DNA from: Telluria beijingensis
GTDB taxonomy: Bacteria; Pseudomonadota; Gammaproteobacteria; Burkholderiales; Burkholderiaceae_D
Length of the DNA stretch: 64,000 nucleotides
Assembly (NCBI RefSeq): GCF_030770395.1
Contig: NZ_CP132480.1
Span: 1,944,891 to 2,008,890 of the forward strand
Direction: 5' to 3'
Of this stretch, positions 25,852-56,583 are shown one piece after another (position 1 is the first letter of the stretch; each line of letters starts with the position of its first letter). The notes below the pieces were generated by a model. That model saw nothing but the letters and a program-made list of their open reading frames with translations, did no database searches and was not told the origin of the DNA. The translations under genes and the position numbers were made by a program.

Positions 25852-25866
25852 CGTAACTAAACTACG
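25852..25866. promoter_or_regulatory. TGTAGT-N3-ACTACA type operator candidate
   Basis: CGTAACTAAACTACG matches the pseudo-palindrome at 9 of 12 defined positions. It lies between the divergent alpha-glucosidase and POT transporter genes. Confidence 0.4.
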
Positions 25867-36163: not shown

Positions 36164-36234
36164 CGTGTAAGGATACCATTGAACGAATTGCAAGAGAATG
36201 GGGTTGCCGGTAGCGCCCTGGGTAGTGAGCAAGC

Positions 36235-36340: not shown

Positions 36341-36368
36341 TTCTTTCACTGAAGCCGCAGCGCCGCGA

Positions 36369-39362: not shown

Positions 39363-39588
39363 GCTCCCTCTCCTTCGCGCCAACGCACGCCGGCGCGCCA
39401 CGGCCGCGCGCTCCGTTGGCGCCCGGTTCCGTACAACATGTATGCGTAGACAGCTTATCAGCGTTCGAGCGAACGCTGCGGACGCGTGGACGGGGATTCC
39501 GCGCGGCAGGAAATCATGCGCCCGGCATGGAAAGATGCACCAGCATGGCGCATGGCAGCGAGCGCCGCCATGCGCCGGTCGGACGCGC

Positions 39589-41262
39589 TCAGTCCTGGGC
39601 GATCAGCGCCACCGGCGCCGCGGTGTCGAAGCGCACCTTGCCGCCCTTGACCACGGCGCTCTTGCCGGTGTACCAGTCGCGCACGGTGGCGCCGTCGTGG
39701 AACACGCCGCCGACCTGGATGTCCGCCGGCGCGCCGCCCGGCAGGTCGAGCGCCACCACCACGCGGTCGCTGACGCCGTTCTTTTCCCAGGTGCGCTTGA
39801 AGGTGTAGGGGCTGTGGCTGATCATCTGGTGCACGCCTGCCCCGACCGCCGGATGGGCGGCGCGGAAGCGGCCCAGGCGCGCCCAGTGGTCGCGAATGTC
39901 GGCGACGCGGTGCGCGCCGCGTGCGGCATTGGACTTCAGCTCGTCCCAGTTCATGAACGAGCGCAGCGTGGCGTCGCCTGCCGCGCCGTCGACGCGCAGG
40001 ATGCGCGCCGTCTCGTCGCCATAATAGATCTGGGCCGCGCCCGGCGCCAGCAGCAGCTTGTTGGCCGATTCGAACGGGCGCTCGCGCAGCGGGTCGAAGG
40101 GGCTGCCGTCGTCGTGCGAACTGATGTAGTTGAGCACGGAATAACCCTTCATCTCTCCCTGCAGGATGGTCGAGTAATCCGAGAAGATTTTTTCGTAGGG
40201 CTGCTTGGCGTCGCTGCGCAGGCTGAAGCTGATCATGCTGTCGAAGCCCTGGTCCAGGTAATCGACGAAGTCGCCGCCGCCCAGGTCGAACTTGCGCGCA
40301 TGCCTGATCTCGTAGTTGTACACCTCGGAGACCATCCAGAACTTGTCCTCACCCAGGCGCTGCTTCGGATTGGCGCGCTTCCAGTCCTCGAAAGCGAGGC
40401 TGGCTTCCTGCTTGAGTTCCTTCCACAGGCCCGGTTCGGTGTGCTTGACCGTGTCGGCGCGGAAGCCGTCGATGCCGTACTTGCGCACCCAGTCGGCGTG
40501 CCACTTCATCAGGTAGTAGCGCGGCGCGCGCGGATAGCCGGTGCGCTTGAAGAACTCGTCCAGCTCCTTCACCTCGCGCTCGTAGCGACCCTCCTTCTTC
40601 CACTTCGCCACCAGGTGCGGCGGCAGGTCGACGTTGGCGTCGCTATTGGTGAGGAAGTCCGGCAGATTGGCCACCAGCGTGCAGTCGATCGTGGTGCGCG
40701 CATCTTTATAGGTGCACTGCGGGCCGGTACGCACCCACGACTTCGGCCATACCGGATCCTGCTTTGTTACCGGGCCGGTGTGGTTCATCACCACGTCGAA
40801 CACGATGCGGATGCCGCGCGCGTGGGCGGTGTCGACCAGCTCCTTCAGCTCGGCCTCGGTGCCGAAGGCGGCGTCGAGCGCCGTAAAATCCTTGGCCCAG
40901 TAGCCGTGGAAGCCATAGCTCTTGCCGGTGCCTTCATCGGTCGAGCCGTGGATCTGCTCGACGACCGGCGTGAACCAGATCGCGTTCACGCCCAGGTCGG
41001 TGAAATACCCTTCCTTGACCTTCGCCGTGATGCCGGCGATGTCGCCGCCCATGAAGCCGCGCAGCTTGGCGGCATCGTCCTTGCGGCCATACGCCTTGTC
41101 GTTGGCCGGATTGCCGTTGTTGAAGCGGTCCGTCAGCAGGAAGTAGACGGTCGCGTTCTCCCAGACGAAAGGCTTGCCGGCGGGCGCCGTGGTGTGCGCG
41201 GCGGCGGACGACAGCGCGCCGAAGGCGAGCAGCATGGAGGCGGCAAGGACGGGTAGTTTCAT
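39589..41262 (-). CDS. Secreted alpha-amylase (GH13)
   Basis: A 557-residue enzyme with signal peptide MKLPVLAASMLLAFGALS, cleaved after SAAA. GH13 motifs: FDVVMNHTG (about 157), GFRADTVKHTEP with nucleophile Asp (about 270), MVSEVYNYE with acid Glu (about 311) and ISSHDDGSPF (about 378). A C-terminal beta domain follows. It should cut alpha-1,4 bonds of starch or maltodextrin in the periplasm or outside. It starts 37 bases after the pgm stop on the same strand, so it is the last gene of an MFS-pgm-amylase operon. Confidence 0.92.
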   Translation of the reverse strand: MKLPVLAASMLLAFGALSSAAAHTTAPAGKPFVWENATVYFLLTDRFNNGNPANDKAYGRKDDAAKLRGFMGGDIAGITAKVKEGYFTDLGVNAIWFTPVVEQIHGSTDEGTGKSYGFHGYWAKDFTALDAAFGTEAELKELVDTAHARGIRIVFDVVMNHTGPVTKQDPVWPKSWVRTGPQCTYKDARTTIDCTLVANLPDFLTNSDANVDLPPHLVAKWKKEGRYEREVKELDEFFKRTGYPRAPRYYLMKWHADWVRKYGIDGFRADTVKHTEPGLWKELKQEASLAFEDWKRANPKQRLGEDKFWMVSEVYNYEIRHARKFDLGGGDFVDYLDQGFDSMISFSLRSDAKQPYEKIFSDYSTILQGEMKGYSVLNYISSHDDGSPFDPLRERPFESANKLLLAPGAAQIYYGDETARILRVDGAAGDATLRSFMNWDELKSNAARGAHRVADIRDHWARLGRFRAAHPAVGAGVHQMISHSPYTFKRTWEKNGVSDRVVVALDLPGGAPADIQVGGVFHDGATVRDWYTGKSAVVKGGKVRFDTAAPVALIAQD

Positions 41263-41298: not shown

Positions 41299-43050
<1,752 letters not shown>

Positions 43051-44382
43051 TCAAGCCTTGACCGGGGCCGCCTTGTCGGTGACGAACAGGGTCAGCACCG
43101 CCGCGACCAGCATGCAGCCGCCGCCCAGCACCAGGGTCTGGACCGCATGGCCGCCGAACAGGTGCTTGGTGACGCTGCCCAGCAGCAGGCCGCTGACGAT
43201 TTGCGGGATCACGACGAAGAAGTTGAACAGGCCCATGAAGTAACCCATGCGCTTGGCCGGCAGCGAGCCGGCCAGGATCGCGTACGGCATGGTCAGGATC
43301 GAGGCCCAGGCGATGCCGATGCCGATCATCGGCAGCACCAGGGTCTGCTTGTCGGTGATCAGGAACATGCTGGCCAGCGACAGGCCGCCGATGGTCAGGC
43401 ACGTGGCGTGCACGATCTTGCGGCTGGTGGCGCGGGCGAACACCGGCAGGATGAAGGCGGCCAGCGCCGACACGCCGCTGTACACCGCGAACATGATGCC
43501 GACCCAGTTGCCGGCGTCCTGGTAGGCGCTCGATTGCGCATCGGTGGTGCCGTAGACGTTGTCGGCGATCGCGGTGCCGGTGTAGATCCACATCGCGAAC
43601 AGCGCGATCCAGGTGAAGAACTGCACGAAGGCCAGTTGCACCATGGTGCGCGGCATCTTGCCGAAGCCGCCGAGGATCTCGACGAACATCGTGCCCACGC
43701 CGCGCGAGGCCTTACGCTCCTTATGGAAGGCCTCCATGTCGGGCGGCGGCAGTTCGTCGGCGAATAGCACGGTCCAGCTTACCGCCAGGAAGAACACCAG
43801 GCCGCCGGCATAGAAGGAGTAGCGCACGGTGTCCGGGATCACGCCGCCGACGGCAGCGTTGGACACGCCCATGCTCTCGAAGAAGGTCGGCAAGAGCGAT
43901 GCGATGACGGCGCCGCAGCCGATGAAGAAGGTCTGCATCGCATAGCCCGCGGTCTGCTGGGCCGGATCGAGCTTGTCGCCGACAAAGGCGCGGAACGGTT
44001 CCATCGATACGTTGATGGCGGCGTCCATCATCCACAGCACGGCGACCGCCATCCACAGCGCGGTGGAGTTCGGCATCAGGAATAGCGCGATCGCGGCCAG
44101 CACGGCGCCGATGAAGAAGAACGGACGGCGGCGGCCCCATTTCGGGTGCCAGGTATTGTCGCTCAGGTAGCCGATGATCGGCTGGACCAGCAGGCCGGTG
44201 ACCGGCGCGGCCAGCCAGTACAGGGCCAGGTTGTCGGGATCGGCGCCGAGGGTGGCGAAGATGCGGCTGGTATTGGCGTTCTGCAGCGCGAAGCCGAACT
44301 GGATGCCGAAGAAACCGAAGCTCATGTTCCACAGCTGCCAGAACGACAGGCGCGGCTTGAGCACGGTCGATTGCATATCCAT
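43051..44382 (-). CDS. MFS sugar transporter of SLC45/GPH type (probable maltose/maltodextrin importer)
   Basis: A 443-residue inner-membrane protein with twelve hydrophobic segments. The opening LSFWQLWNMSFGFFGIQFGF and the loop IGYLSDNTWHPKWGRRRPF are characteristic of the sucrose/maltose SLC45-like branch known from Xanthomonas and Caulobacter. It should import maltose or maltodextrins with protons or sodium. It is first in a run with pgm and amylase (120 and 37 bases apart). Two TGTAGT-type sites lie 150-280 bases upstream. No maltose ABC importer is in the window, so this is the likely inner-membrane route. Confidence 0.85.
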   Translation of the reverse strand: MDMQSTVLKPRLSFWQLWNMSFGFFGIQFGFALQNANTSRIFATLGADPDNLALYWLAAPVTGLLVQPIIGYLSDNTWHPKWGRRRPFFFIGAVLAAIALFLMPNSTALWMAVAVLWMMDAAINVSMEPFRAFVGDKLDPAQQTAGYAMQTFFIGCGAVIASLLPTFFESMGVSNAAVGGVIPDTVRYSFYAGGLVFFLAVSWTVLFADELPPPDMEAFHKERKASRGVGTMFVEILGGFGKMPRTMVQLAFVQFFTWIALFAMWIYTGTAIADNVYGTTDAQSSAYQDAGNWVGIMFAVYSGVSALAAFILPVFARATSRKIVHATCLTIGGLSLASMFLITDKQTLVLPMIGIGIAWASILTMPYAILAGSLPAKRMGYFMGLFNFFVVIPQIVSGLLLGSVTKHLFGGHAVQTLVLGGGCMLVAAVLTLFVTDKAAPVKA

Positions 44383-44534: not shown

Positions 44535-44549
44535 TGTAGCAAAATAACA
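44535..44549. promoter_or_regulatory. TGTAGT-N3-ACTACA type operator candidate upstream of the MFS transporter
   Basis: TGTAGCAAAATAACA: left half 5 of 6, right half weaker. It lies 153 bases upstream of the transporter start. Confidence 0.35.
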
Positions 44550-44624
44550 TGGTGGTTTCTAGGTGTCAATCGCGGCGTTCCCATAGTAGGACAGCCGCGA
44601 CAACCCAGTGTAAACACGGATTTT

Positions 44625-44662
44625 TGTAGTCAAACAACAGCGTGCACCGTCGTTTGACTACC
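44625..44662. promoter_or_regulatory. Paired operator candidates in inverted orientation
   Basis: TGTAGTCAAACAACA (44625-44639) and, inverted, CGTCGTTTGACTACC (44648-44662). The inner GTAGTCAAAC and GTTTGACTAC are perfect 10-bp inverted repeats 16 bases apart. It sits between the helicase stop (44666) and the MFS transporter. There is no T-tract on either side, so it is not a standard terminator. The rest of 44383-44624 shows only the site at 44535. Confidence 0.45.
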
Positions 44663-44665
44663 TGC

Positions 44666-46504
44666 TTACGCCTGCCCTTTGCGGTGCGGCTTCTTGCCCG
44701 GCGCCGGCTTTTCGCTCAGGCGGCGTTCGACGCCCTTCTTGGCGGCGTACGGTTTCTTCGCAGCGGGCGTGGCCGGCGTTTCGCCATCGCGCGTGATATC
44801 GAGCTGGCGCCCTGCCACCCACACGGTCTTGAGGTGGTCGACCAGGTCCTTCGGCATGTCGTCCGGCAGGTCCAGCGTCGAATAGTCGTCATAGATCTCG
44901 ATGCGGCCGATGTGCTTCGACGGGATATTGGCTTCGTTGGCGATCGCGCCGACGATATTGCCCGGCTTGGCGCCGTGCACATAGCCGACTTCGATGCGGA
45001 AGGTGGCCATGCCCGGCTCCGGCTCGCGCGCCACGCGCTCTTTCTTGAAGCCCGGCTCGCGCGGCGGACGCGCGGGACGGTCTTCCCACTCGCCGCGCGG
45101 CGGACGCTCCTGGAAGCCGCGCTCGGCGCCGCCGCCAAACTCGCGCTGCGACGGCACGCCTTCCGGACGCGCCTCGCGATCCGGCTTGGTCAGCAGCAGC
45201 GGCTCGTCGCCGCGCGCCAGCTTGGCCAGCGCAGCCGCGATCTCGATCGCCGGCACGTTGTCTTCACGCTCTATCTCTTCGATCAGCGAGCGGAACACTT
45301 CCAGCCCGCCTTCGGCCAGCGTGGTGCGGATCTGGTCCTTGAAGCGGCTGATGCGCACTTCGTTGACTTCCTTGATCGTCGGCAGCGACAGCGGCGCCAC
45401 CGGCTGGCGCGTGGCGCGCTCGATCGCCTTCAGCAGGCCGCGTTCGCGCGGGGTGATGAACAGGATCGCGTCGCCGCTGCGGCCCGCGCGGCCGGTGCGG
45501 CCGATGCGGTGGGTATAGCTCTCGGGATCGGACGGCACGTCGTAGTTGATCACGTGGCTGATGCGCTCCACGTCCAGGCCGCGGGCGGCGACGTCGGTCG
45601 CCACCAGGATGTCGATCTTGCCGTTCTTGAGCTGCTCGATGGTGCGCTCGCGCTGTTGCTGGGCCATGTCGCCGTTGATGGCGGTGGCGGCGAAGCCGCG
45701 CGCCTGCAGCTTGGTCGCCAGTTCCTCGGTGCCCAGCTTGGTGCGGGCGAAGATGATCATGCCATCGAACGGTTCGGCCTCGAGGATGCGGGTCAGCGCG
45801 TCGAGCTTGTGCATGCCCGACACCAGCCAGTAGCGCTGGGTGATGTTCTCGGCGGTGCCGGTCTTGGCCGCGACGGTCACTTCGGCCGGATCGCGCAGAT
45901 AGGTCTTGGCGATGCGCTTGATCGCCGGCGGCATGGTGGCCGAGAACAGCGTGGTCTGGCGGCCTTCCGGGGTCTGCTGCAGGATGTGTTCGACGTCGTC
46001 GATGAAGCCCATGCGCAGCATTTCGTCGGCTTCGTCGAGCACCAGCGTGGTCAGCTGCGACAGGTCGAGCGAACCTTTTTCGATATGGTCGATGACCCGG
46101 CCCGGGGTGCCGACGACGACGTGCACGCCGCGGCGCAGGCTCGACAGCTGCGGGCCGTAGCTCTGGCCGCCGTAGATCGGCAGCACGTGGAAGCCCTTGA
46201 TGTGGGCGGCATAGCTCTGGAAGGCTTCGGCCACCTGGATCGCGAGCTCGCGCGTGGGCGCCAGCACCAGCGCCTGCGGGGTGGTCTGCTTGATGTCGAT
46301 GCGCGACAGGATCGGCAGGGCGAAGGCGGCGGTCTTGCCGGTGCCGGTCTGGGCCTGTCCCAGCACGTCGCGCCCTTCCAGCAGCAAAGGAATGGTGGCG
46401 GCCTGGATCGGCGACGGCGTTTCGTAGCCGACGTCCTTCAGCGCTTTCAGGACGGGCGCCGAGATGGAAAGGTCGGAGAACGATGGGATGGGGGTGTCGG
46501 ACAT
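44666..46504 (-). CDS. deaD: DEAD-box RNA helicase (DeaD/CsdA type)
   Basis: A 612-residue ATP-dependent RNA helicase. N-terminal Q motif (PTPIQAATIPLLL-like SPIQAATIPLLL), Walker A AQTGTGKT (about 53-60), PTRELAIQ, DEADEML (about 159-165), SAT and the C-domain motif HRIGRTGRAGRSG. Residues about 480-570 form a DbpA-type RNA-binding domain (FRIEVGYVHGAKPGNIVGAI). The tail is basic. DeaD unwinds structured RNA in cold-shock and ribosome assembly. It stands apart from the glucan genes in function and is probably transcribed from its own promoter. Confidence 0.93.
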   Translation of the reverse strand: MSDTPIPSFSDLSISAPVLKALKDVGYETPSPIQAATIPLLLEGRDVLGQAQTGTGKTAAFALPILSRIDIKQTTPQALVLAPTRELAIQVAEAFQSYAAHIKGFHVLPIYGGQSYGPQLSSLRRGVHVVVGTPGRVIDHIEKGSLDLSQLTTLVLDEADEMLRMGFIDDVEHILQQTPEGRQTTLFSATMPPAIKRIAKTYLRDPAEVTVAAKTGTAENITQRYWLVSGMHKLDALTRILEAEPFDGMIIFARTKLGTEELATKLQARGFAATAINGDMAQQQRERTIEQLKNGKIDILVATDVAARGLDVERISHVINYDVPSDPESYTHRIGRTGRAGRSGDAILFITPRERGLLKAIERATRQPVAPLSLPTIKEVNEVRISRFKDQIRTTLAEGGLEVFRSLIEEIEREDNVPAIEIAAALAKLARGDEPLLLTKPDREARPEGVPSQREFGGGAERGFQERPPRGEWEDRPARPPREPGFKKERVAREPEPGMATFRIEVGYVHGAKPGNIVGAIANEANIPSKHIGRIEIYDDYSTLDLPDDMPKDLVDHLKTVWVAGRQLDITRDGETPATPAAKKPYAAKKGVERRLSEKPAPGKKPHRKGQA

Positions 46505-46618
46505 AAAAGAATTGCTCTTGAAATAAGTAGAAACGAAACCGACAGTTTACACCGTCGTCTCGTCCGGGGCGCTAAATAGGATGGATGCGGGGGTCAAAAC
46601 CACAGAATCCGGAAAAAC

Positions 46619-46652
46619 AAAAAAGCCCTTGCAGGCAAAAACCTGCAAGGGC
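46619..46652 (-). terminator. Rho-independent terminator of TonB receptor 1
   Basis: On the minus strand GCCCTTGCAGG and CCTGCAAGGGC pair around a six-base loop, followed by six T. It lies 57 bases after the receptor stop. The remaining 46505-46708 bases show nothing else except the helicase leader. Confidence 0.9.
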
Positions 46653-46708
46653 CCCGATGAGGGCAGGCGCTGCCGCCGTGGCGGCGCGCCGGTATTACGG
46701 CGTGAAAC

Positions 46709-49378
46709 TTACAGCTTGTAGTTCAGGCCGAGCAGCATCTGGCGGCCATACTTGCTGTAGCCGCGCGGACGGTCTTCGGTGCCGGCGTAGCTGCGGAACG
46801 CGGTATCGGTCAGGTTGTTCACCTGGAACAGCACCGACAGGCCTTCGATCTGCTTGAAGTCGTAACCCAGCTGCAGGTCGACCACTTTATCAGCTTTCAC
46901 GTAGGTCAGCTCGGTAGCGCCGCCGATGCCGCCGATCTCGCCCACGAAATCGCTGCGGTAACGCTGGCTGACGCGGGCCGAGAAACCGTCTTTTTCATAG
47001 TAGGCGGTGACGTTGAACACGCGCTTGGACAGGCCCGGCAGCGGGATCGCGAGGCTGCCGAAGCGCTGGTCGACGATCGAGATTTCGCTGGCGGTGAACG
47101 AGGCGTTGGCGGTGATGCCGAAGCCGTCGAGCATCGGGTGGATCATGTCGAGCGGGGTCGAGGCCGCGAATTCCAGGCCTTTCAGGTTGCCGCCTTCGCC
47201 GTTCATCGGCTGGGTCATGGTGCCGATATTGGTCAGCGCGCCCTGCAGGTTAAACTCGGAGAAGTCACGCGGCACCGTCACGCTGTAGATGTACGAGGAC
47301 AGGTCCTTGTAGAAGCCGGCAGCCGAGACATAGCCCTTGTTGCCGAAGTATTTTTCGTACGACAGGTCGACCTGCTTGGCGCGCCATGGATCGAGCTGGG
47401 CGTTGCCGCCATTGCCCCACGGGGTGCCGGTGGTCTGCGCGGTCAGGCCCACTTCGAGGGCGGCGTTCAGCTGGTTCAGCTTGGCGCGCGCCAGGGTCTT
47501 GCCGGCGCCGAAGCGGATGAATTGCTGGTCAGGCAGGGCCCAGGACAGGTTCACGCTCGGCAGGTAGTCGGTGTATTTCTTGCCGTCGGTCAGCGGGACC
47601 AGGTCGGCGAACGGCCAGGCGCGCAGGGTGTTCGCGGTCGAGCTCTGGTCGGTCTCGATCACTTGCATGCCGATATTGCCGCGCAGTGGCATCGACATCA
47701 GTTCCGTGTCGATGTTCAGCTTGGCGTAGCCGGTCTTGACCTTTTCTTCGATCGACCAGTTCTTGGTCGCGCCCCATGGCACCAGGATGGCCGGGGTGAA
47801 CGGGCCGAAGTTATTCGCCAGCACGGCGTCGATGTCCCAGCTCAGCGAATTCTGCAGCCCATACAGGCCTTGCGAACCGTTGATCACGCCAGGTGCGAAG
47901 GTACCGGCGCCGATCTTCGAGAAGCCGGTTTCCAGGTGCTCTTTCTCTTTTTCGCGCTTGGAGTGGTTGTAGCCGACTTCCAGGCTGCTGAACGGACCGT
48001 CGGCGAACTTGCGCTCGAGGCTGACGCGGAACGACGTCATCTTGTCGGTCATGTTCGGGGCATTCACATAACCTTCGCCGAACTGGCCGCCGATGGCGAT
48101 CTGCGACGGATCGTCGTACACGCCCGACAGCGACAGTTGCGGGATGGTGCCGCCGTTGTAGCTGTAGCCCAGGGTCTGGCGCGCGGCGCGGCCGGCGTTG
48201 ATCTCGATCAGCTGTTCCTTGTGGTCGGCCTTCGAGCGGCTGATGTCGACGATACCGACCCAGTCGCCATTGGTGTAGCGGTTGTTCCAGCCGAAGGCGG
48301 TCAGCTTGTCGTCGCGCGTCATGCGGTTGTTACGCACGACCGGATTGACGTTGTTGGCGGTGCCGGCGATGGCGACGCCATTGACCACGCTCGACGGCGC
48401 GAAGCGCACTTCGCCGTCGTCCTTCAGTGGAATCTCGATGCCGCGGCGGATTTCTTCCTGGTCGAAGCGCGAGTGGTAGACGTCGAAGGTCGAGCTGAAG
48501 TTGCGGTTCGGACGCCATTCCAGCACGCCCATCAGGCCGTCGCGCACCTGGTCGCCGGTGGTGGCCATCGACTTGATGCCCTTCGGCACCTTGACGGTCG
48601 TGCCCGGCACGGCATTAGTGTCGTCCACCCAGTCCCAGGTCTCGAACTGCTGGTGCACGTTCGGTTTGTCCTGGCGCGCATAGCCGATCGCCACGCCGAT
48701 GGTGCGGTCGGCGAACTGGTCGATGTAGGAGGCGCTGATGCGGCTGCCGGTGTCCGGCGAACCGGCGCTGATCGAGCCCTTCGAATTCTTTTCGCCGCGC
48801 ACGTTGACGCTGATGGTGCGCTCGCGCAGTGACAGCGGCTTGATGGTCTGCAGGTCGACCGTGCCCGACAGGCCCTGGCCGATCACGCTGGCGTCGCCGG
48901 TCTTGTACACGGTGACGGCATTGATCAGTTCGGATGGGTACTGGTCGTATTCGACGGTACGGTCGGAGCTGGTGGTGACCTGCTCGCGGCCGTTCAGCAG
49001 CGCGGTCGACAGGTCGCCCGAGGTGCCGCGGATGCTGATCGACTGGGCCTGGCCGTTGACGCGCTGGGCCGACAGGCCCGGCAGGCGGGCCAGCGATTCG
49101 GCGATCGACACGTCCGGCAGCTTGCCGATGTCTTCCGAGGAGATCGCTTCGACGATGCCGGTCGATTCGCGCTTGACGGCGATCGCGTCCTCGATCGCGC
49201 GGCGGATGCCGGTCACGGTCACGGTGGTGACGGGCGCGTCGGGATTCAGGGTGGCGGCTTCGGAGGTGGCGGCGGTTTGCGCGTGTGCGCTGCCGGCCAG
49301 AACCGTGACGAAGATGGCGCAGCCGGCGGCAACCGGGCTCAACTGGAATGCGGCGCGCTTGGTGGCGATGTTTTTCAT
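46709..49378 (-). CDS. TonB-dependent outer-membrane receptor 1 (TonB_Xanth_Caul type)
   Basis: An 889-residue receptor. The signal peptide is residues 1-33 (SPVAAGCAIFVTVLAGSAHA). A TonB-box-like VTTVTVTGIRRAI follows, then the plug domain (SAESLARLPG-like AESLARLPGLSAQ, IRGTSGD) and the barrel ending in NYKL with a C-terminal aromatic-rich strand (GRQMLLGLNYKL). The IGKLPDVSIAESL plug motif marks the carbohydrate-linked Xanthomonas/Caulobacter type. It should import malto-oligosaccharides with energy from TonB/ExbBD. GAGGGGACAC precedes the ATG. A promoter and operator candidates lie within 300 bases upstream. Confidence 0.9.
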   Translation of the reverse strand: MKNIATKRAAFQLSPVAAGCAIFVTVLAGSAHAQTAATSEAATLNPDAPVTTVTVTGIRRAIEDAIAVKRESTGIVEAISSEDIGKLPDVSIAESLARLPGLSAQRVNGQAQSISIRGTSGDLSTALLNGREQVTTSSDRTVEYDQYPSELINAVTVYKTGDASVIGQGLSGTVDLQTIKPLSLRERTISVNVRGEKNSKGSISAGSPDTGSRISASYIDQFADRTIGVAIGYARQDKPNVHQQFETWDWVDDTNAVPGTTVKVPKGIKSMATTGDQVRDGLMGVLEWRPNRNFSSTFDVYHSRFDQEEIRRGIEIPLKDDGEVRFAPSSVVNGVAIAGTANNVNPVVRNNRMTRDDKLTAFGWNNRYTNGDWVGIVDISRSKADHKEQLIEINAGRAARQTLGYSYNGGTIPQLSLSGVYDDPSQIAIGGQFGEGYVNAPNMTDKMTSFRVSLERKFADGPFSSLEVGYNHSKREKEKEHLETGFSKIGAGTFAPGVINGSQGLYGLQNSLSWDIDAVLANNFGPFTPAILVPWGATKNWSIEEKVKTGYAKLNIDTELMSMPLRGNIGMQVIETDQSSTANTLRAWPFADLVPLTDGKKYTDYLPSVNLSWALPDQQFIRFGAGKTLARAKLNQLNAALEVGLTAQTTGTPWGNGGNAQLDPWRAKQVDLSYEKYFGNKGYVSAAGFYKDLSSYIYSVTVPRDFSEFNLQGALTNIGTMTQPMNGEGGNLKGLEFAASTPLDMIHPMLDGFGITANASFTASEISIVDQRFGSLAIPLPGLSKRVFNVTAYYEKDGFSARVSQRYRSDFVGEIGGIGGATELTYVKADKVVDLQLGYDFKQIEGLSVLFQVNNLTDTAFRSYAGTEDRPRGYSKYGRQMLLGLNYKL

Positions 49379-49471
49379 GTGTCCCCTCAGATAGAACGAT
49401 GTGGTCCCGAAATCAGCTGGCTGGCCGGACCGGGATCGGCTTTTTGCGACAAAATCAACGTTGGGCGGAAT

Positions 49472-49499
49472 TTTGTATTAAAACTAGATGCACTGTCAA
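49472..49499 (-). promoter_or_regulatory. Sigma70-like promoter of TonB receptor 1
   Basis: On the minus strand TTGACA (49499-49494), 16 bases, TACAAA (49477-49472), about 94 bases before the start codon. The operator candidate 49474-49488 lies in the spacer and over the -10 box. Confidence 0.55.
49474..49488. promoter_or_regulatory. Operator candidate over the TonB receptor 1 promoter
   Basis: TGTATTAAAACTAGA. The 11-base core AAAACTAGATN with TGTANT before it is shared with 54384-54398 in front of receptor 2. A regulator bound here would cover the promoter. Confidence 0.5.
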
Positions 49500-49569
49500 C
49501 GGGAGTTATTTGCAGCAAGGATCATCGCAGGTTTTTCGCTAATTCATTGTAAATGAACGAGTTTTTCGT

Positions 49570-49584
49570 TGTTAAAGCGCTACA
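49570..49584. promoter_or_regulatory. Operator candidate (TGTTAA-AGC-GCTACA)
   Basis: Right half GCTACA matches the strong site at 49602-49616 exactly; left half is partial. It lies 18 bases from that site, so cooperative binding is conceivable. Confidence 0.35.
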
Positions 49585-49601
49585 TGGCGATTTTCCCGGT
49601 C

Positions 49602-49616
49602 TGTAGTCAGGCTACA
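49602..49616. promoter_or_regulatory. Strong operator candidate upstream of TonB receptor 1
   Basis: TGTAGTCAGGCTACA, a near-perfect palindrome with one mismatched pair. An almost identical copy, TGTACTCAGGCTACA, lies at 54469-54483. Confidence 0.55.
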
Positions 49617-49670
49617 AATGCCTTAAAAACCAGCATGATTTTCTTGCTTTGCACCATCGTGGTGCACTTA

Positions 49671-49685
49671 TGTAGTAAAACAACC
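49671..49685. promoter_or_regulatory. Operator candidate (TGTAGT-AAA-ACAACC)
   Basis: Left half is perfect, right half partial. The neighbouring GCACCA-TCG-TGGTGC (49651-49665) is an unrelated perfect 15-nt palindrome. The 49379-49815 gap thus contains the receptor promoter, four operator candidates, this palindrome and the halogenase terminator. Confidence 0.4.
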
Positions 49686-49766
49686 AGATCAGAAGCGAGG
49701 CGTTCAAACGCATGAAAAATTGCTACATGCAAATGATCGGACCCTGATGTGTCGTTACAACAGGCG

Positions 49767-49790
49767 AAAAAAAAGCCGCCCGAAGGCGGC
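49767..49790 (-). terminator. Rho-independent terminator of the halogenase gene
   Basis: On the minus strand GCCGCC-TTCG-GGCGGC with a stable tetraloop, followed by eight T. It lies 26 bases after the stop. Confidence 0.92.
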
Positions 49791-49815
49791 CGCGTGACGC
49801 AGGAATGACGGTCGA

Positions 49816-51327
49816 TCAGCCTTTGCGCACCGCGCAATGCTTGGCGATGTACTCGTCATGCGTTGGCATCACATCCACGCATTTGCGGATTACATCGCGC
49901 ACGCTGCCCATATAGTCGGCGATGTCCGCCTCGGACTGGGTATCGGCCAGCGGGTGGTAGCCGTCGACCGGCATGTTCTGCCCTTCCAATACCTGCAACC
50001 AGCCGACTTCCGAAAACAGCTCGTTATCGACCCGCACGATCTTGCCGCGCGAGCGGTACAGGTCCATCTTCTGGCGCAGGGTATCGGGAATCGCCATATT
50101 GGCGCATTCGGTCCAGTAGGCCGAATCGGTGCGCTGGTTCAGGTGGTAGTGCAGGATGATGAAGTCGCGCACGCGCTCGTACTCGAAGCGCGACTGGCGG
50201 TTGAATTCGATCCGGTCGGTATCGCTGAAACGGCGGTCCGGGAAAAATTCGACCAGGCGCGCGATCGCTGACTGGATCAGGTGGATGCTGGTCGACTCGA
50301 TCGGCTCCAGGAAACCACCGGCCAGGCCCATCGCGACCACGTTGCGGTTCCAGGCCTGCTTGCGCATGCCGGTACGGAACCTGATCAGGCGCGGTTCGGC
50401 CAGCGCGCGGCCGTCGAGATTCGACAGCAGGGTCGCCGTCGCCTCGTCGTCGCTGATGAAGCGGCTGCAGTAGACGTGGCCGTTGCCGGTGCGGTGCTGC
50501 AGCGGGATGCGCCACTGCCAGCCCGACTTGTGCGCGGTCGCGCGCGTGAACGGCGTCAGCGCCGGCACCGATTCGCAGGGCACGGCCAGCGCGCGGTCGG
50601 CCGGCAGCCAGTGGTGCCAGTCTTCGTAGCCGGTCTCCAGGGTTTGCTCGATCAGCAGGCCGCGGAAGCCCGAGCAGTCGATGAACAGTTCGCCCTCGAC
50701 GCGCTGGCCGCCTTCCAGCTCGACCGCCTCGATGAACCCGTCCGGCTCGCGCTGGATGGCGCGGGTGATCTTGCCTTCGATGCGCGTCACGCCGCGCTGT
50801 TCGGACAGTTTTCTCAGGTATTTCGCATACAGGCTGGCGTCGAAGTGGTAGGCGTAGGCGATGTCGCCCAGCGGCGAATTCGGTACATCGGTACGGGCCG
50901 GCATGAACTTGCCAGCCTTGGCCGCCATGCGCGTGATCGAATACTCCTCGAGCGGCGCGGCCTTGCCCAGCGCGCGCATCTTGTGCCAGTACTGTTCGAA
51001 CGGCACCGTGGCCAGGTCCTGGCCCATGCGGCCGAAGCCGTGCATGTAGCGCTCGCCCAGCTTGCCCCAGTTGACGAACTCGACGCCCAGCTTGAAGGTG
51101 CCCATCGTCTCGCGCATGAATTCGTTCTCGTCGATCCCGACCACGCGGTTGAAGCGCTGGATCATCGGGATGGTCGCCTCGCCCACGCCGACGATGCCGA
51201 TCTCGTCCGACTCGACGAGCCGGATGTTGTAGCGGCCGTTCAGCATGCTCGAAAGCGCCGCCGCCGTCATCCAGCCCGCGGTGCCGCCGCCCACGATGAC
51301 GATGTCCTTGATTGCCTGGTTTTCCAT
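49816..51327 (-). CDS. Flavin-dependent halogenase (tryptophan halogenase family)
   Basis: A 503-residue protein. The FAD motif GGGTAGW is at 13-19, the catalytic lysine at Lys79 in TFKLGVEF (same number as in PrnA), the diagnostic WxWxIP at 270-275 (WQWRIP) and EPIESTS at 341-347 with the conserved Glu-Ser. All residues needed for FADH2/HOCl chemistry are thus present. The family halogenates tryptophan or other indoles and phenols; the substrate here is unknown. A flavin reductase partner is not in the window. The gene lies between two TonB receptors on one strand, a context known for halogenases such as BrvH. Confidence 0.88.
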   Translation of the reverse strand: MENQAIKDIVIVGGGTAGWMTAAALSSMLNGRYNIRLVESDEIGIVGVGEATIPMIQRFNRVVGIDENEFMRETMGTFKLGVEFVNWGKLGERYMHGFGRMGQDLATVPFEQYWHKMRALGKAAPLEEYSITRMAAKAGKFMPARTDVPNSPLGDIAYAYHFDASLYAKYLRKLSEQRGVTRIEGKITRAIQREPDGFIEAVELEGGQRVEGELFIDCSGFRGLLIEQTLETGYEDWHHWLPADRALAVPCESVPALTPFTRATAHKSGWQWRIPLQHRTGNGHVYCSRFISDDEATATLLSNLDGRALAEPRLIRFRTGMRKQAWNRNVVAMGLAGGFLEPIESTSIHLIQSAIARLVEFFPDRRFSDTDRIEFNRQSRFEYERVRDFIILHYHLNQRTDSAYWTECANMAIPDTLRQKMDLYRSRGKIVRVDNELFSEVGWLQVLEGQNMPVDGYHPLADTQSEADIADYMGSVRDVIRKCVDVMPTHDEYIAKHCAVRKG

Positions 51328-51350
51328 GTTTTCTGCCCTAGTCTCTTCCA

Positions 51351-51380
51351 ACGAAAAACAACCCCCGGGGCCGGGGGCCG
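51351..51380 (-). terminator. GC-rich hairpin with T-tract between TonB receptor 2 and the halogenase gene
   Basis: On the minus strand GGCCCCCGGCCCCGGGGG is followed by TTGTTTTT. It may end or attenuate receptor 2 transcripts before the halogenase. A half-site TGTAGT (51393-51398) lies next to it. Confidence 0.5.
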
Positions 51381-51409
51381 CGAGGGTTGCATTGTAGTCC
51401 GGCTTGCTA

Positions 51410-54295
51410 TCAGAACTTGTAGTTGGCGCCGAACTGGTAAGTGCGGCCGTACACGACGCGACGGGTAATCGAATCCGGATTATCCGTGTACTCCTGGTAT
51501 GGCGCGTTGTTCCAGTTGTTCGCCTGGGCGAACACCGACAGGCCCTTGGCGAAGCCCGACTGGATCTCGTACGAGACCTGGAAGTCGACGATGGTCTCGC
51601 CCTTGACGAAGGTGTACTGCAGCGTGTCCGAGAAGTCCGGCGACTGGCCCAGGAAGTCCGAACGCTTGCGCGCCGCGGCGGCGATCTGGAAGCCGTTCTT
51701 TTCGTAGTACAGGCGCAGATTGCTGACCTTGCGCGACAGGCCCGGCAGCGGAATCGACTGCGCCGCGGTCTGCACGTTGCCGAAGCCCAGCGCCGGGATG
51801 TCGATCGCGGAACTGGTGTACGAGTGGTTGGCCAGCACGCCGAAGCCATCCAGCCACGAATGCACCATGTTCAGCGGGACGTTCACCGCCAGCTCGTAAC
51901 CGCGGATGCGGCCGCCTTCGCCGTTTTCAGGACGGTTCAGCACGCCGATGGTCGAGCCTTCGAACGTGCCCGAAGTCGGCAGCGGCGTGGTCGACGTGAC
52001 CCATGGCGCGAAGTCGTATTCCGACGGCGTGCGCAGGATGAAGCTGTCGAGCTTCTTGTAGAAGCCGGCCACGCTGACATAACCCTTCTTGGCGAAGTAT
52101 TTTTCGTACGACAGGTCGAACGATTTCGCTTCGAACGGCTTCAGGAGCGGGTTGCCGCCGCCGCCGCTGATGAACGGGTTGGCGACGCTGGTGTTCACGC
52201 CGAAGCCGATGCCGCCGCGCAGGTCGTCCAGGCTCGGACGCGACAGCACCTTGGCCACGCCCATGCGCAGCACCTGGTCGTTGTTCAGGTCGAACGACAG
52301 GTTCAGGCTCGGCAGCACGTTCCAGTAATCGGCGGTGTCTTCCGCGCGCACCACCGGGCACGAGGCCGCCGTCTCGCCGGTGCAGTTGCCGCTGTTGTAG
52401 CCGCCGCCGGTCTGCTTGGTGTGCACGAACTGGGTGCCCACGTTGCCGCGGTAATCGAAGCCGAACAGCTGGCCGTTCAGGTCGCCCATCACGTAGGCGG
52501 TCTGCACGGTTTCCTTGACGTCCCACAGCTTGGTCAGGATGTCGGCATTGACCTTCTCGGCCAGTTCGTACACGGTGCCCAGCGAACCGAGCGGGTTCCA
52601 GGATGCGACCGGGATGCCGGTGGTGCCGGCCGTGTTCGGGGTGCTGTCCGGCATCGGCACGGCGCCGTACAGGTCGCCGCCGACGATCATCAGGCGGCCT
52701 TCTTCGCCGGTGCGGCGTTTTTCGCGGTCGGTGAAGTTGTAGCCGAACTGGAGGGCCGATACCGGACCCCACTCAGTGTCGCGCTTGGCGTTCAGGCGGA
52801 TCGCCTTGAGCGTGTCCGCGATATGGGGCTGGGCCAGGTAGCCGGCCTGCGCCAGCGGCTCGGCCGCGGTGCCCGACCAGCCGTTCACGTCGGTCAGGCG
52901 GGCGATGTTCGGATCCGAATAATCCAGGCCGGTGCGGTAGGCGACATCGGCGTAGTTCAGGCCATTGAAGCCGGTCCACGAGATGGTGTCCAGGTTGGTG
53001 GCGTTGCCCGGCAGGCCGGCGGTGGTTTCGTAGCGCGAGCTCAGCTTGGTCGCCTTGGACCAGGTGATGTCGGCGCTGGTATCCCACTCGCCCAGTTTCA
53101 GCTCGTTCTTCCAGCCGACCGTCTTCAGGTCGTCCTCGGCCGCTTCGATGTGGTTGCGGATGACGGCCTTGTAGTTGGTCAGGGTGCCGCTGGTGGCGAT
53201 GCCGTTCGATACGGTGACGTCCTGCAGCACGCCGACCGGGTCATAGCGGCCCGATTCGTTGTTGCCGATCGCACCTTCCAGGCCGGTACGCTTGAAGCCC
53301 GTTTCGCCGGCCGAATAGAACAGGTCGACGGTGGAGCGGAAGTTGCGGTTCGGACGCCATTGCAGCGAGGCGAAGGCGCCGTCGCGGTTGTGGTAGCCGG
53401 TCTCGGTGTCGGCGGTGAAGCCGGTCGGTACGCGCACGTTCTGGCCGTTGTACGGCAGTTCGGCCGTGTTGCCGCCCCATGCGTCGAACTTGCGCTGTTC
53501 GCCGCCGGTCTCGTCGTACGAGGTCAGGCCGACCGCGAGGCCGATGGTGCGGTTGGCGAACTGGTCGATGTACGACAGCGAGAAGCGGTCGCCATCGCCT
53601 TCTTCGTTGGTGCGCACGCCCAGGCGGCTCTTCTTGTAGTTGACGGCGACCACGCGCTTGCCGAAGTCGAGCGGCTGCACGGTCTTGAGGTCGATGGTCG
53701 CGGCCAGGCCCGAACCGATCACGCTCGCGTCCGGGGTTTTATAGATCACGACGCCGCCCATCAGCTCGGACGGGAACAGGTCGAATTCGGGGTTGCGGGC
53801 GTTGCCCGTCGAGGCCATTTCGCGGCCGTTGAGCAGGGTGCCGTTGAAGCTCGGCGACAAGCCGCGCACCGAGATTTCGGACGCGCGTCCCGAACCGCGG
53901 CTGCGCTGGGCGGTCACGCCCGGCAGACGTGCGATCGATTCGGCTACCGAGGAGTCGGGCAGTTTGCCGATGTCTTCGGCCGAAATCGCTTCGACGATGG
54001 AATTGGAGTTGCGCTTGACCGAGATCGCCGCTTCGATGCCCTGGCGGATGCCGGTCACGGTGACGGTGGAGACGTTCGGGGTCGGCGCCGCTGCCGGCGT
54101 CGCGATGACTTCGCTAGTGGCGGCCGCGGTCGGGGTGTTCGGTGCGACGGCGGTTTGCTCCGCGCTGCCCGAGGCCTGGGCGAAGGCCTGGCCGGCCAGC
54201 GCCGACAGCAGGACGGCGCAGCCCGCGGCGAACGGGTTCAAGGGGAATGCGGTACGCGCCGACTTGCCGGCGCGCCTGGTGGCGGTAGCTTTCAT
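51410..54295 (-). CDS. TonB-dependent outer-membrane receptor 2 (TonB_Xanth_Caul type)
   Basis: A 961-residue receptor. The start at 54295 follows GAGGAG and gives the signal LNPFAAGCAVLLSALAGQ ending AFA. A Pro/Ala/Thr linker leads to the TonB-box-like VSTVTVTGIRQGI. The plug has IGKLPDSSVAESIARLPG and VRGLSPSFNGTLLNGREM. The barrel ends with the aromatic strand YQFGANYKF. It is clearly related to receptor 1 but not a recent duplicate. It should take up alpha-glucan oligosaccharides. Its promoter region carries the same AAAACTAGAT element as receptor 1. The halogenase gene follows 82 bases downstream. Confidence 0.9.
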   Translation of the reverse strand: MKATATRRAGKSARTAFPLNPFAAGCAVLLSALAGQAFAQASGSAEQTAVAPNTPTAAATSEVIATPAAAPTPNVSTVTVTGIRQGIEAAISVKRNSNSIVEAISAEDIGKLPDSSVAESIARLPGVTAQRSRGSGRASEISVRGLSPSFNGTLLNGREMASTGNARNPEFDLFPSELMGGVVIYKTPDASVIGSGLAATIDLKTVQPLDFGKRVVAVNYKKSRLGVRTNEEGDGDRFSLSYIDQFANRTIGLAVGLTSYDETGGEQRKFDAWGGNTAELPYNGQNVRVPTGFTADTETGYHNRDGAFASLQWRPNRNFRSTVDLFYSAGETGFKRTGLEGAIGNNESGRYDPVGVLQDVTVSNGIATSGTLTNYKAVIRNHIEAAEDDLKTVGWKNELKLGEWDTSADITWSKATKLSSRYETTAGLPGNATNLDTISWTGFNGLNYADVAYRTGLDYSDPNIARLTDVNGWSGTAAEPLAQAGYLAQPHIADTLKAIRLNAKRDTEWGPVSALQFGYNFTDREKRRTGEEGRLMIVGGDLYGAVPMPDSTPNTAGTTGIPVASWNPLGSLGTVYELAEKVNADILTKLWDVKETVQTAYVMGDLNGQLFGFDYRGNVGTQFVHTKQTGGGYNSGNCTGETAASCPVVRAEDTADYWNVLPSLNLSFDLNNDQVLRMGVAKVLSRPSLDDLRGGIGFGVNTSVANPFISGGGGNPLLKPFEAKSFDLSYEKYFAKKGYVSVAGFYKKLDSFILRTPSEYDFAPWVTSTTPLPTSGTFEGSTIGVLNRPENGEGGRIRGYELAVNVPLNMVHSWLDGFGVLANHSYTSSAIDIPALGFGNVQTAAQSIPLPGLSRKVSNLRLYYEKNGFQIAAAARKRSDFLGQSPDFSDTLQYTFVKGETIVDFQVSYEIQSGFAKGLSVFAQANNWNNAPYQEYTDNPDSITRRVVYGRTYQFGANYKF

Positions 54296-54383
54296 GGGTC
54301 TCCTCGATGGAAGGCTCGTCCCCTCCACGGCTCGGGCCGGGTGGTCTCGCCTCAACAATTTTTATCAGCTTCCGACTGCCTAC

Positions 54384-54398
54384 TGTACTAAAACTAGA
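54384..54398. promoter_or_regulatory. Operator candidate upstream of TonB receptor 2
   Basis: TGTACTAAAACTAGA, 89 bases before the start codon, the counterpart of 49474-49488 in front of receptor 1. Confidence 0.5.
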
Positions 54399-54468
54399 TT
54401 CTTGCAATCGGAAAACTGTGTCTATTGACAATGATGGCAGGTTTCAACAAAAACAGTTTCGCGCTCGT

Positions 54469-54483
54469 TGTACTCAGGCTACA
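54469..54483. promoter_or_regulatory. Strong operator candidate in the receptor 2 / GH13 divergent region
   Basis: TGTACTCAGGCTACA, one base different from the palindrome at 49602-49616. Confidence 0.55.
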
Positions 54484-54565
54484 GAATTCGGCCTCATTTG
54501 CCGTCGTCATACGACAATCGCTCTGTTTCTGAAGGAAATCTGAAGATTCCATATGAGGCAAAAGA

Positions 54566-54580
54566 AGTAGTTCCACTAGA
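54566..54580. promoter_or_regulatory. Operator candidate (AGTAGT-TCC-ACTAGA)
   Basis: Ten of twelve half-site positions match the consensus. The ACTAGATGCA that spans its end recurs at 49483-49492. Confidence 0.4.
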
Positions 54581-54682
54581 TGCAGTGCCAGGTGTATTGA
54601 TTGTTTGCACCAGATTTCTATAGTAATCTTCGGCCAACACAACAACATTTTGCGCCTTATCGCTACCCATCAAGCATGGTTT

Positions 54683-54697
54683 TGTAGTCTTACTACC
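54683..54697. promoter_or_regulatory. Strong operator candidate before the GH13 / six-hairpin operon
   Basis: TGTAGTCTTACTACC, 11 of 12 half-site positions, 33 bases upstream of the GH13 start codon. Together with the sites at 54384, 54469 and 54566 it makes four in the 434-base divergent region. Confidence 0.55.
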
Positions 54698-54729: not shown

Positions 54730-56583
54730 ATGAGACAACTCCTCGCCAGCATCGTGCTCGGCAGCGCCTCGTTCGCCGCCTGTGCCCAGCCCACCGCCAT
54801 CGCCCACATGGAGCCGCCGTTCTGGTGGGCCGGCATGCAGCATCCCCAGGTCCAGCTGATGGTCCATGGCGACAAGATCGCCGAACTGCAGCCGCAACTG
54901 GCCTATCCCGGCGTGCGCATCGCCAGCGTGACCCGCACCCCGAACCCCAACTACCTGTTCATCGACCTGGCGCTCGATCCGGCGGTCAAGCCGGGCAGCT
55001 TCGACATCGCCTTCAACGGCGCTGGCCGCACGGCCAGCTACACCTACCGCCTGCTCGAGCGCGAACCCGGCTCGGCCAAGCGCCAGGGCTTTTCCAGCAA
55101 GGATGCGATCTACCAGATCATGCCGGACCGCTTCGCCAACGGCGACCCGTCCAATGACAGTGTCGACGGCATGCCGGACAAGCTCGACCGCAAGGGCGGC
55201 CTGGGCCGCCATGGCGGCGACATCAAGGGCATCATCGACCGCCTGGATTACGTCGCCGGCCTGGGCTTCACCCAGCTGTGGCCAACGCCGCTCGTCGAAA
55301 ACAATATGCCGGGCTACTCGTACCACGGCTATGCGGCGACCGACCTGTACAAGATCGACCCGCGCTACGGCAGCAACGAGGATTTCAAGCGCCTGTCGCA
55401 GGAAGCGAAGAAGCACGGCATCGGCATCATCCAGGACGTGGTGCTGTCGCACATCGGCAGCCACCACTGGTGGATGAAGGACATGCCGGCCCCGGACTGG
55501 ATCAACTACAACGACAAGTTCGTGCCGACCCACCACTACCACACGGCGGTGCAGGACCCGTACGGCTCGAAGGAAGACGCCGACAACTTCACGCGCGGCT
55601 GGTTCGTCAAGAGCATGCCCGACATGAACCAGTCCAATCCGCTGGTGGCGAATTACCTCATCCAGAACAATATCTGGTGGATCGAGTACGCCGGCCTGTC
55701 GGGCCTGCGGATCGACACCTTCGGCTATTCGGACAAGCCGTTCCTGGCGGAGTACACCAGGCGCCTGATGGCCGAATACCCGAACCTGAACCTGGTCGGC
55801 GAGGAGTGGAGCACCAAGGTGCCGGTGGTGGCCTACTGGCAGCGCGGCAAGCAGAACTTCGACGGCTACCAGGCCTATACGCCGAGCCTGATGGACTTCC
55901 CGGTCGCCGAGGCGATGCGCAAGGCGCTGGCCGACAAGAAGGGCGGCAACGTATTCACCGACGTCTACGAGACGCTGTCGCTGGACTACCTGTATCCGGA
56001 GCCGGGCAACCTGGTCCTGTTCGCCGACAACCACGACATGTCGCGCATCTACAGCGAAGTGGGCGAGGACTTCGACAAGTACCGCATGGCGATGATCTTC
56101 ATGATGACGGCGCCGCGCATCCCGCAGTTCTACACCGGCGACGAGATCCTGATGACCAGCGCCGTCGGCGAGCGCAACGACGCCACCTACCGCACCCCGT
56201 TCCCGGGCGGCTGGGCCGGCGACAAGGTCGATGCTTTCAAGGGCGTCGGCCTGAACGCGAAACAGCGCGCGGCGCAGGACTTCGTGCGCAAGCTGGCCAA
56301 CTGGCGCAAGGGCCAGCCGGTCATCCATCACGGCAAGATGATGCACTACGGGCCGCAAGACAACACCTGGGTCTACTTCCGCTACGACGACGAGAAGAAG
56401 GTGCTGGTCGCCTTCAACAACAATACGAAGGAAAAGGCGCTGGACGTCGACCGCTTCCGCGAGATGCTCACGGGCGTGACGAGCGGCGTCGATGCCCTGA
56501 CCGGCAAGACCTATGACCTGCGCGAAAAACTGACCCTGGCGCCGCGCGCGGCCATCGTCCTCGAACTGGCGGCGCCCCAATGA
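54730..56583 (+). CDS. Exported GH13 cyclomaltodextrinase/neopullulanase-like enzyme (SusA type)
   Basis: A 617-residue enzyme. Signal MRQLLASIVLGSASFAACA, with cleavage after ACA or lipidation of Cys17 as a less likely option. A cyclomaltodextrinase N-terminal beta domain (PPFWWAGMQHPQVQLMVHG) precedes the barrel. Motifs: QDVVLSHIGSHHWW, GLRIDTFGYSD with the nucleophile, VGEEWST with the acid and FADNHDMSRIY. It should cut cyclodextrins, pullulan or maltodextrins in the periplasm, as SusA does in Bacteroides. Its stop overlaps the next start by four bases. It is divergent from receptor 2. Confidence 0.9.
   Translation: MRQLLASIVLGSASFAACAQPTAIAHMEPPFWWAGMQHPQVQLMVHGDKIAELQPQLAYPGVRIASVTRTPNPNYLFIDLALDPAVKPGSFDIAFNGAGRTASYTYRLLEREPGSAKRQGFSSKDAIYQIMPDRFANGDPSNDSVDGMPDKLDRKGGLGRHGGDIKGIIDRLDYVAGLGFTQLWPTPLVENNMPGYSYHGYAATDLYKIDPRYGSNEDFKRLSQEAKKHGIGIIQDVVLSHIGSHHWWMKDMPAPDWINYNDKFVPTHHYHTAVQDPYGSKEDADNFTRGWFVKSMPDMNQSNPLVANYLIQNNIWWIEYAGLSGLRIDTFGYSDKPFLAEYTRRLMAEYPNLNLVGEEWSTKVPVVAYWQRGKQNFDGYQAYTPSLMDFPVAEAMRKALADKKGGNVFTDVYETLSLDYLYPEPGNLVLFADNHDMSRIYSEVGEDFDKYRMAMIFMMTAPRIPQFYTGDEILMTSAVGERNDATYRTPFPGGWAGDKVDAFKGVGLNAKQRAAQDFVRKLANWRKGQPVIHHGKMMHYGPQDNTWVYFRYDDEKKVLVAFNNNTKEKALDVDRFREMLTGVTSGVDALTGKTYDLREKLTLAPRAAIVLELAAPQ

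Follow-up and report, generated by a model that had tools for sequence, protein, structure and literature searches.

A TGTAGT-N3-ACTACA element as the probable operator of glucokinase-RpiR fusion proteins in an alpha-glucan gene cluster of Telluria beijingensis

Introduction

RccR of Pseudomonas is the described RpiR-family regulator closest to the system considered here. In vitro, it binds the 15-bp sites TGTAGTTTTACTACT and TGTAGTAAAACTACA, with weaker binding in the presence of 2-keto-3-deoxy-6-phosphogluconate (KDPG) (PMC5489143). RccR is a free-standing protein that controls aceEF, the glyoxylate shunt and gluconeogenesis and also uses a 28-bp site. In this study, we describe a 64,000-nt stretch of the Telluria beijingensis genome (contig NZ_CP132480.1, positions 1,944,891 to 2,008,890; hereafter the window), in which a repeated TGTAGT-N3-ACTACA element marks the genes of an alpha-glucan cluster. 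This element is probably the operator of two glucokinase-RpiR fusion proteins, which, as judged from comparative sequence analysis, would repress an alpha-glucan regulon together with their own operons and be released by a sugar phosphate.

The fusions resemble RccR in their probable 15-bp TGTAGT-N3-ACTACA operator, which is often paired, and in their helix-turn-helix (HTH)-SIS architecture. Of the residues through which RccR contacts KDPG, most of those that align reliably are kept in the glucan-type fusions, but S188 is not. They differ from it in carrying a glucokinase domain and in their location on alpha-glucan genes. HexR of Proteobacteria, an RpiR repressor of sugar catabolism, had been taken as the model for the motif in a preliminary description of this DNA; on the published sites (PMC5489143), the RccR operator (TGTAGT/ACTACA, 15 bp) lies closer than the HexR consensus reported for Pseudomonas, TTGT-N7-8-ACAA, and RccR replaces HexR in this role. 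The NCBIfam HexR model matches the two fusions at 219 and 223 bits, under its cut-off of 296. Furthermore, the genome encodes a separate true HexR orthologue that owns the operator class of zwf and edd, whereas the fusions stand behind sites of the TGTAGT-N3-ACTACA type, designated class A.

The fusion type itself is already known by annotation. PRK14101/NF010701, a bifunctional transcriptional regulator/glucokinase, has the same domain order and matches both proteins over their full length (profile positions 15-596 and 11-597 of 638), and a bifunctional glucokinase-HexR of Paraburkholderia xenovorans has been described (PMC12568896). The NF010701 scores, 826.7 bits for glkR1 and 812 bits for the second fusion, lie under the curated cut-off of 920; since none of the 195 family genomes passes it, this cut-off may be strict. 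The fusions differ from the NF010701 type in a kinase loop reading GATH instead of GGTN and in their gene neighbourhood. LacI-type maltose regulators (MalR, MalI) serve the same kind of target pathway but belong to another protein family, and none is encoded in the window.

According to the proposed model, the two fusions would have arisen by duplication in Massilia and relatives and would act as repressors of the TonB receptors, the cyclomaltodextrinase-type enzyme (CDase) with its six-hairpin glycosidase, the MFS transporter-phosphoglucomutase-amylase genes and the alpha-glucosidase, as well as of the fusions' own operons. Glucan-derived glucose would be phosphorylated, and a sugar phosphate would then bind the SIS domain and lift repression. 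Free HexR, a paralogue, would keep the Entner-Doudoroff genes through the sister operator TGTAGTAAATTTACA. Such a model assigns a probable role and probable targets to sugar kinase-repressor fusions, a protein type that is widespread but has been little studied. It suggests that two RpiR paralogues share out an ancestral half-site, one serving glucan uptake and the other the Entner-Doudoroff pathway, and offers a testable account of how Massilia-type bacteria may control TonB-dependent use of alpha-glucans with no LacI or MalT regulator nearby. Beyond the operator known through RccR, no glucokinase-RpiR alpha-glucan regulon and no division of operators between HexR and a fusion was found in the literature covered, which included few subscription papers; RegPrecise or Leyn et al. 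2011 may contain related predictions.

Candidate operators in the window and the genome

Direct reading of the sequence located the motif at all 12 positions that the preliminary description had given for it (Table 1). At up to three mismatches the window holds 25 sites against 4.25 expected, and none of 100 shuffles reached 25. Four intergenic stretches, together 1,400 bp long, account for 11 of these 25; 0.55 would be expected there by length, and 1,000 dinucleotide shuffles of the stretches gave a mean of 0.38 and a maximum of four. An origin of the motif by chance or base composition is excluded by these shuffles. The tonB1 region, with sites at 49474, 49570, 49602 and 49671, echoes the scheme of the tonB2/CDase region. 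Sites in the window are less perfect than those of relatives, and those at 25852 and 49570 would not count alone, being too degenerate; they are credited because relatives carry better sites at the same positions.

A scan of the complete genome (6.02 Mb, single contig), which had been suggested as a check for random spread, showed that the motif is not randomly spread. Five sites occur at one mismatch or fewer, three of them in the window and the other two inside long open reading frames (ORFs), with the caveat that the distinction between intergenic and coding came from an ORF heuristic whose over-long starts rendered the zwf and glk3 promoter sites "coding", so that it is a guide only. At two mismatches or fewer there are 86 sites, at least eight of which lie in the window among the matches listed. 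Outside the window, a third, free-standing glucokinase gene, glk3, is preceded by two class-A-like sites 63 bp apart, AGTAGTTCGACTACG and TGTACCTAAACTACA (about G000:C1:1308439-1308516, or 1940-2017 of locus L075), and by these sites it is likely a further regulon member. Three intergenic sites at 5959154, 584881 and 534722 were rejected as extra members, having no recognisable glucan gene adjoining. The pullulanase gene of the window (27669-30389) was likewise dropped, since no upstream site has fewer than four mismatches; the pullulanase genes of relatives L080 and L084 do have a good site. Separately, an intergenic TGTAGCAATAACACA lies 5' of a secreted-protein-like ORF, possibly another receptor, elsewhere in the genome (L430, G000:C1:1526628).

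Conservation among relatives

CDase orthologues (E ≤ 1e-60) were identified in 44 of the 195 family genomes, and the surroundings of 35 were taken. The TonB-CDase intergenic region, or 700 bp beside the receptor, was cut from 30 of these loci; five without a recognised adjacent receptor were dropped. All 30 regions contain O1, of the form TGTA[C/T]TAAAACTAGA, 28 contain an exact TGTAGT-N3-ACTACA (O3), and 29 contain a pair of sites exactly 33 bp apart. The distance from O1 to O3 is 129-133 bp, being 129 in 19 of 28 cases, and additional sites occur closer to the CDase gene. Altogether, these regions hold 149 sites at up to three mismatches in 18.9 kb, versus 7.0 in mononucleotide shuffles.

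Beyond this region, a site at two mismatches or fewer lies upstream of the MFS gene in each of the 26 relatives with an MFS match. Across the 35 loci (664 kb), 63 of the 64 sites at one mismatch or fewer fall inside the promoter windows of glucan genes, which make up 55 kb. A set of named loci of the Massilia/Duganella/Rugamonas/Pseudoduganella type gave the same picture: all 67 have a site at one mismatch or fewer, which in 61 of them stands no more than 1.2 kb upstream of CDase and in 51 is exact, although many belong to the same species as the numbered genomes and the two sets are not independent. Of 11 loci from Arenicella and Bacteroidota that contain a CDase relative, none has a site at one mismatch or fewer; two short fragments of betaproteobacterial origin (L381, L384), excluded prior to these counts, also lack one. 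By this cross-genome footprinting, we take TGTAGT-N3-ACTACA to be a real operator, and its conservation across the loci of relatives strongly supports the proposal that it is the mark of an alpha-glucan regulon.

A few exact sites are not tied to glucan genes; they lie within an ORF (L265), at a short contig end (L266) and in L272 and L273. The last two, at L272 2018 and L273 2023, come from two close species and stand directly 3' of a hemE-like ORF with no glucan genes near.

RpiR proteins and two operator classes

Three proteins with the RpiR helix-turn-helix (HTH_6) are encoded in the genome: free HexR and the two fusions. The preliminary description had pointed to two glucokinase-RpiR fusions, alike in their recognition helix, as possible regulators; both are present, each with the helix VSQPTVIRFCRSLGFQGL, but the genome also holds the separate HexR, whose gene sits 3' of zwf. 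Glucokinase, HTH_6 and SIS domains are all found in both fusions above the Pfam cut-offs, and the N-terminal HTH_6 with SIS places them in the RpiR family.

The promoters associated with these proteins carry different sites. Upstream of zwf(-hexR), TGTAGTAAATTTACA or a near variant occurs in 30 of 30 genomes, and TGTAGTAAAATTTCA or a near variant precedes edd in the same number; class B denotes the TGTAGTAAATTTACA-type pattern. For agl-glkR1, with agl orthologues in 29 of the 30 genomes searched, a class A site at one mismatch or fewer was present upstream in 21 of 29, usually TGTAGTTTGACTACT. Assigned to the class with fewer mismatches, zwf (30) and edd (30) are entirely class B, and agl-glkR1 comprises 27 class A and two ties; this tally is partly circular, as the class B pattern was derived from the same zwf and edd sites, and the site sequences themselves show the split. 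Among 15 loci containing an orthologue of free HexR (identity 73-87%), 14 have class B-like sites at two mismatches or fewer in pgi, zwf or edd promoters, and the fifteenth (L409) has a weak class B-like site only. The glkR2 gene lies on the same strand 3' of the MFS-operon amylase in 17 loci, with a gap under 300 bp in 12. With three RpiR proteins only, fusion genes in or behind operons with the motif and free HexR associated with the other class, the comparison indirectly supports the fusions as readers of the motif, as had been proposed.

Fusions also occur with the motif outside glucan clusters. In seven loci from five genera (L242-L248; g15, g23, g26, g28, g33), a fusion gene comes after a second zwf, which is itself preceded by two class A sites spaced 71-72 bp, e.g., TGTAGTAATGCTACA and TGTAGTTTTACTAGC. 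These seven belong to the 14 fusion loci fetched without a Massilia-type glucan cluster, of which L252, L254 and L255 also have a site at one mismatch or fewer to TGTARTN3AYTACA before the fusion. Genome G028 combines both arrangements, a class A zwf-fusion and a class B-like free HexR. In the same genome, two class A sites with one mismatch (TGTAGTTTTACTATA and TGTATTTTTACTACA) separate a porin-like ORF from a gene that by eye resembles a sugar kinase gene (L398, 1240-1403); as these sequences stand, they may be a further target of the zwf-linked fusion.

The exact class A site is present in 40 of the 195 genomes, all of them among the 94 with a fusion match above 600 bits (two of these being partial). 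For six of the 40, no CDase match passed the threshold applied. A tree of the RpiR portions groups the fusions in a single clade, separate from HexR, with support of 100/100 (58 rows, comprising 57 fusions and one row flagged as single), and within it the glucan-type fusions make up one subclade (100/99) with two paralogue lineages. One row, L278_1429, was caught falsely by the regular expression and sits on a very long branch; RccR and the g32-type single proteins also have long branches, and their exact placement is uncertain.

Promoter architecture, effector pocket and kinase domain

Both at the window's tonB1 and in 29 of 30 relatives, TTGACA precedes O1 by 5 nt, and the TACA that ends O1 starts a -10-like hexamer 16 bp further. 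O1 therefore fills the promoter spacer, an arrangement that fits repression, and the 33-bp spacing of the site pair corresponds to three helical turns, which would suit cooperative dimers. We infer repression for the TonB promoters only; for the MFS promoter this model was abandoned after inspection of its hexamers, which revealed no convincing -35/-10 pair at conserved spacing.

The KDPG-contact residues of RccR (PMC10810197) were compared across 25 glucan-type fusions: H148, R152, H164 and S183 are kept in all 25, S139 in 21 and S185 in 20. In 15 fusions of the DVGGTNARF type from other genera, S139 is replaced by C in 14, and H148 and H164 by Q in all 15. Because most RccR contacts are kept, our first guess at the Massilia effector is a KDPG-like acidic sugar phosphate, followed by glucose 6-phosphate.

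When glkR2 was aligned to 1q18, the stretches IxNDFTA, EGGHV and ER(L/V)(I/L)SGPG were found to be kept; we take these to be glucose-site residues of E. coli Glk. The phosphate loop of the glucan-type fusions, including glkR1 and glkR2 of the window, reads DIGATHARF and thus departs from the DxGGTN loop of active glucokinase. Fusions of several other genera have D[IV]GGTNARF; at this place, GGTN or GGT is found in other fusions and in the genome's own free glucokinase. A speculative reading, which we regard as rather unlikely, is that the fusions are trigger-enzyme repressors: the GATH-loop kinase domain would sense glucose, or channel its product to SIS, and so set DNA binding directly, while glk3, the separate glucokinase behind two class-A-like sites, would perform the bulk of catalysis. 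If so, the last enzyme of the glucan pathway would be the pathway's own repressor.

Contrary evidence and alternative explanations

Several observations weigh against control of these genes by the fusions. Fusions are also found in 54 genomes without the exact motif, and four of the 14 fusion loci outside glucan clusters (L249, L250, L251, L253) have no site at one mismatch or fewer near the fusion. The co-occurrence of motif and fusion gives a Fisher p of 9e-16, a value uncorrected for phylogenetic kinship. Upstream of agl-glkR1, the site is degenerate, e.g., CGTAGTTTAGCTACT, in eight of 29 genomes, comprising the genome studied and seven close relatives, and two genes, one of them GGDEF-EAL, separate the MFS-operon genes from glkR2 in this genome. 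The TTGACA before O1 is missing at tonB2 of the window and in L046. In the effector pocket, S188 is lost from the glucan-type fusions (L in 24 of 25), and the alignment at the C-terminal contacts K270/R277 is unreliable. Finally, the recognition helices of HexR and the fusions differ little (SEPTVVRFCRTLG versus SQPTVIRFCRSLG) and the TGTAGT half-site is common to both operator classes, so cross-binding is likely.

This last point bears on an improbable alternative, in which free HexR would read the glucan operators in addition to the Entner-Doudoroff ones and the fusions would be minor or absent there. HexR is encoded in the genome, shares the RFCR recognition motif with the fusions and has sites containing the same TGTAGT half. 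The promoters nevertheless separate, 60 of 60 HexR-type against 27 of 29 fusion-type (subject to the partial circularity noted above). In addition, genomes G022 and G030 possess HexR and class B-like sites with no fusion above 600 bits and no exact class A site, and the g32 genomes G132, G165, G176 and G154 possess exact class A sites and a fusion, with a HexR relative of only 41-42%.

The fusions are likewise preferred to a regulator of another family encoded elsewhere, such as a LacI protein, a response regulator or an unknown type, which we consider very improbable as the reader of the sites. The absence of a LacI gene from the window, stated in the preliminary description, proved correct by position, yet 14 LacI proteins are encoded elsewhere in the genome; LacI maltose regulators are common in other bacteria (PMC4052901), and locus L048 has a two-component pair within the cluster. 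Against such a regulator, the unusual 15-bp N3 palindrome is a published RpiR operator. A maltose-type LacI was not found at the sites, although one might be encoded elsewhere in the genome, and no LacI signature appeared in 105 loci in a weak scan that recovers 8 of 12 known LacI loci. Among 10 unassigned ORFs from L048, L050, L055, L062 and L070, the sole transcription factor is the L048 response regulator. A LysR gene of the window (8595-9500) is far from the cluster. The least probable explanation, to which we give hardly any credence, is that the repeats form hairpins in RNA or DNA, act as terminators or are a mobile repeat. The motif has perfect inverted symmetry, and the exact copies behind the hemE-like ORF would suit this idea; but the arms are 6 bp with 3-nt loops, the sites lie in AT-rich promoters with the helical 33-bp spacing, and O1, sitting between the promoter hexamers, is hence not transcribed from that promoter.

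Gene content of the cluster

The genes and candidate operators are compiled in Table 1. The window CDase is 93% identical to the CDases of M. timonae CCUG 45783 and Massilia sp. HP4, a similarity that places the organism in Massilia.

Table 1 Genes and candidate operators of the alpha-glucan cluster in the window. Mismatches were counted against TGTAGTN3ACTACA.
Feature	Coordinates	Strand	Sequence	Remarks
glkR1, glucokinase-RpiR (HTH-SIS) fusion	22222..24040	-		Pfam Glucokinase, HTH_6, SIS; first ORF start far upstream, start codon not fixed
agl, GH13 alpha-glucosidase-like	24072..25709	-		directly 5' of glkR1
Degenerate operator, agl-glkR1/POT divergent region	25852..25866		CGTAACTAAACTACG	4 mismatches
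POT-family transporter	25967..27547	+		divergent from agl-glkR1; start inferred
glkR2, second glucokinase-RpiR fusion	34298..36232	-		true start probably near 36120
GH13 alpha-amylase-like enzyme	39589..41262	-		
Phosphoglucomutase	41299..43020	-		listed ORF; start codon not fixed
MFS sugar transporter, sucrose/proton symporter-like	43051..44382	-		
Candidate operator	44535..44549		TGTAGCAAAATAACA	3 mismatches
Candidate operator of MFS operon	44625..44639		TGTAGTCAAACAACA	1 mismatch
Candidate operator	44648..44662		CGTCGTTTGACTACC	3 mismatches
tonB1, TonB-dependent receptor	46709..49378	-		
O1 of tonB1	49474..49488		TGTATTAAAACTAGA	2 mismatches; flanked by TTGACA and TACAAA hexamers
Degenerate O2 of tonB1	49570..49584		TGTTAAAGCGCTACA	4 mismatches; 32 bp from O3
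O3 of tonB1	49602..49616		TGTAGTCAGGCTACA	1 mismatch
Candidate operator	49671..49685		TGTAGTAAAACAACC	2 mismatches
Tryptophan-halogenase-like gene	49816..51306	-		downstream of tonB2; start inferred from Pfam match
tonB2, TonB-dependent receptor	51410..54295	-		start inferred
O1 of tonB2	54384..54398		TGTACTAAAACTAGA	2 mismatches
O2, tonB2/CDase region	54469..54483		TGTACTCAGGCTACA	2 mismatches
Degenerate O3, tonB2/CDase region	54502..54516		CGTCGTCATACGACA	3 mismatches; 33 bp from O2; absent from the preliminary description
O4, tonB2/CDase region	54566..54580		AGTAGTTCCACTAGA	2 mismatches
O5, just 5' of CDase	54683..54697		TGTAGTCTTACTACC	1 mismatch
GH13 cyclomaltodextrinase-type enzyme (CDase)	54730..56583	+		
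Six-hairpin glycosidase	56580..59468	+		4-bp overlap with CDase gene

Three further features of the cluster were observed. The GGDEF-EAL gene lies at 37491-39401, between the amylase gene and glkR2. Immediately 5' of glkR2, at 36239-36350, there is a long inverted repeat consisting of GGGTACCCGCCTTCGCGGGTACGACG and its complement. The tryptophan-halogenase-like gene comes right after the TonB receptor, and the same order is found in many relatives.

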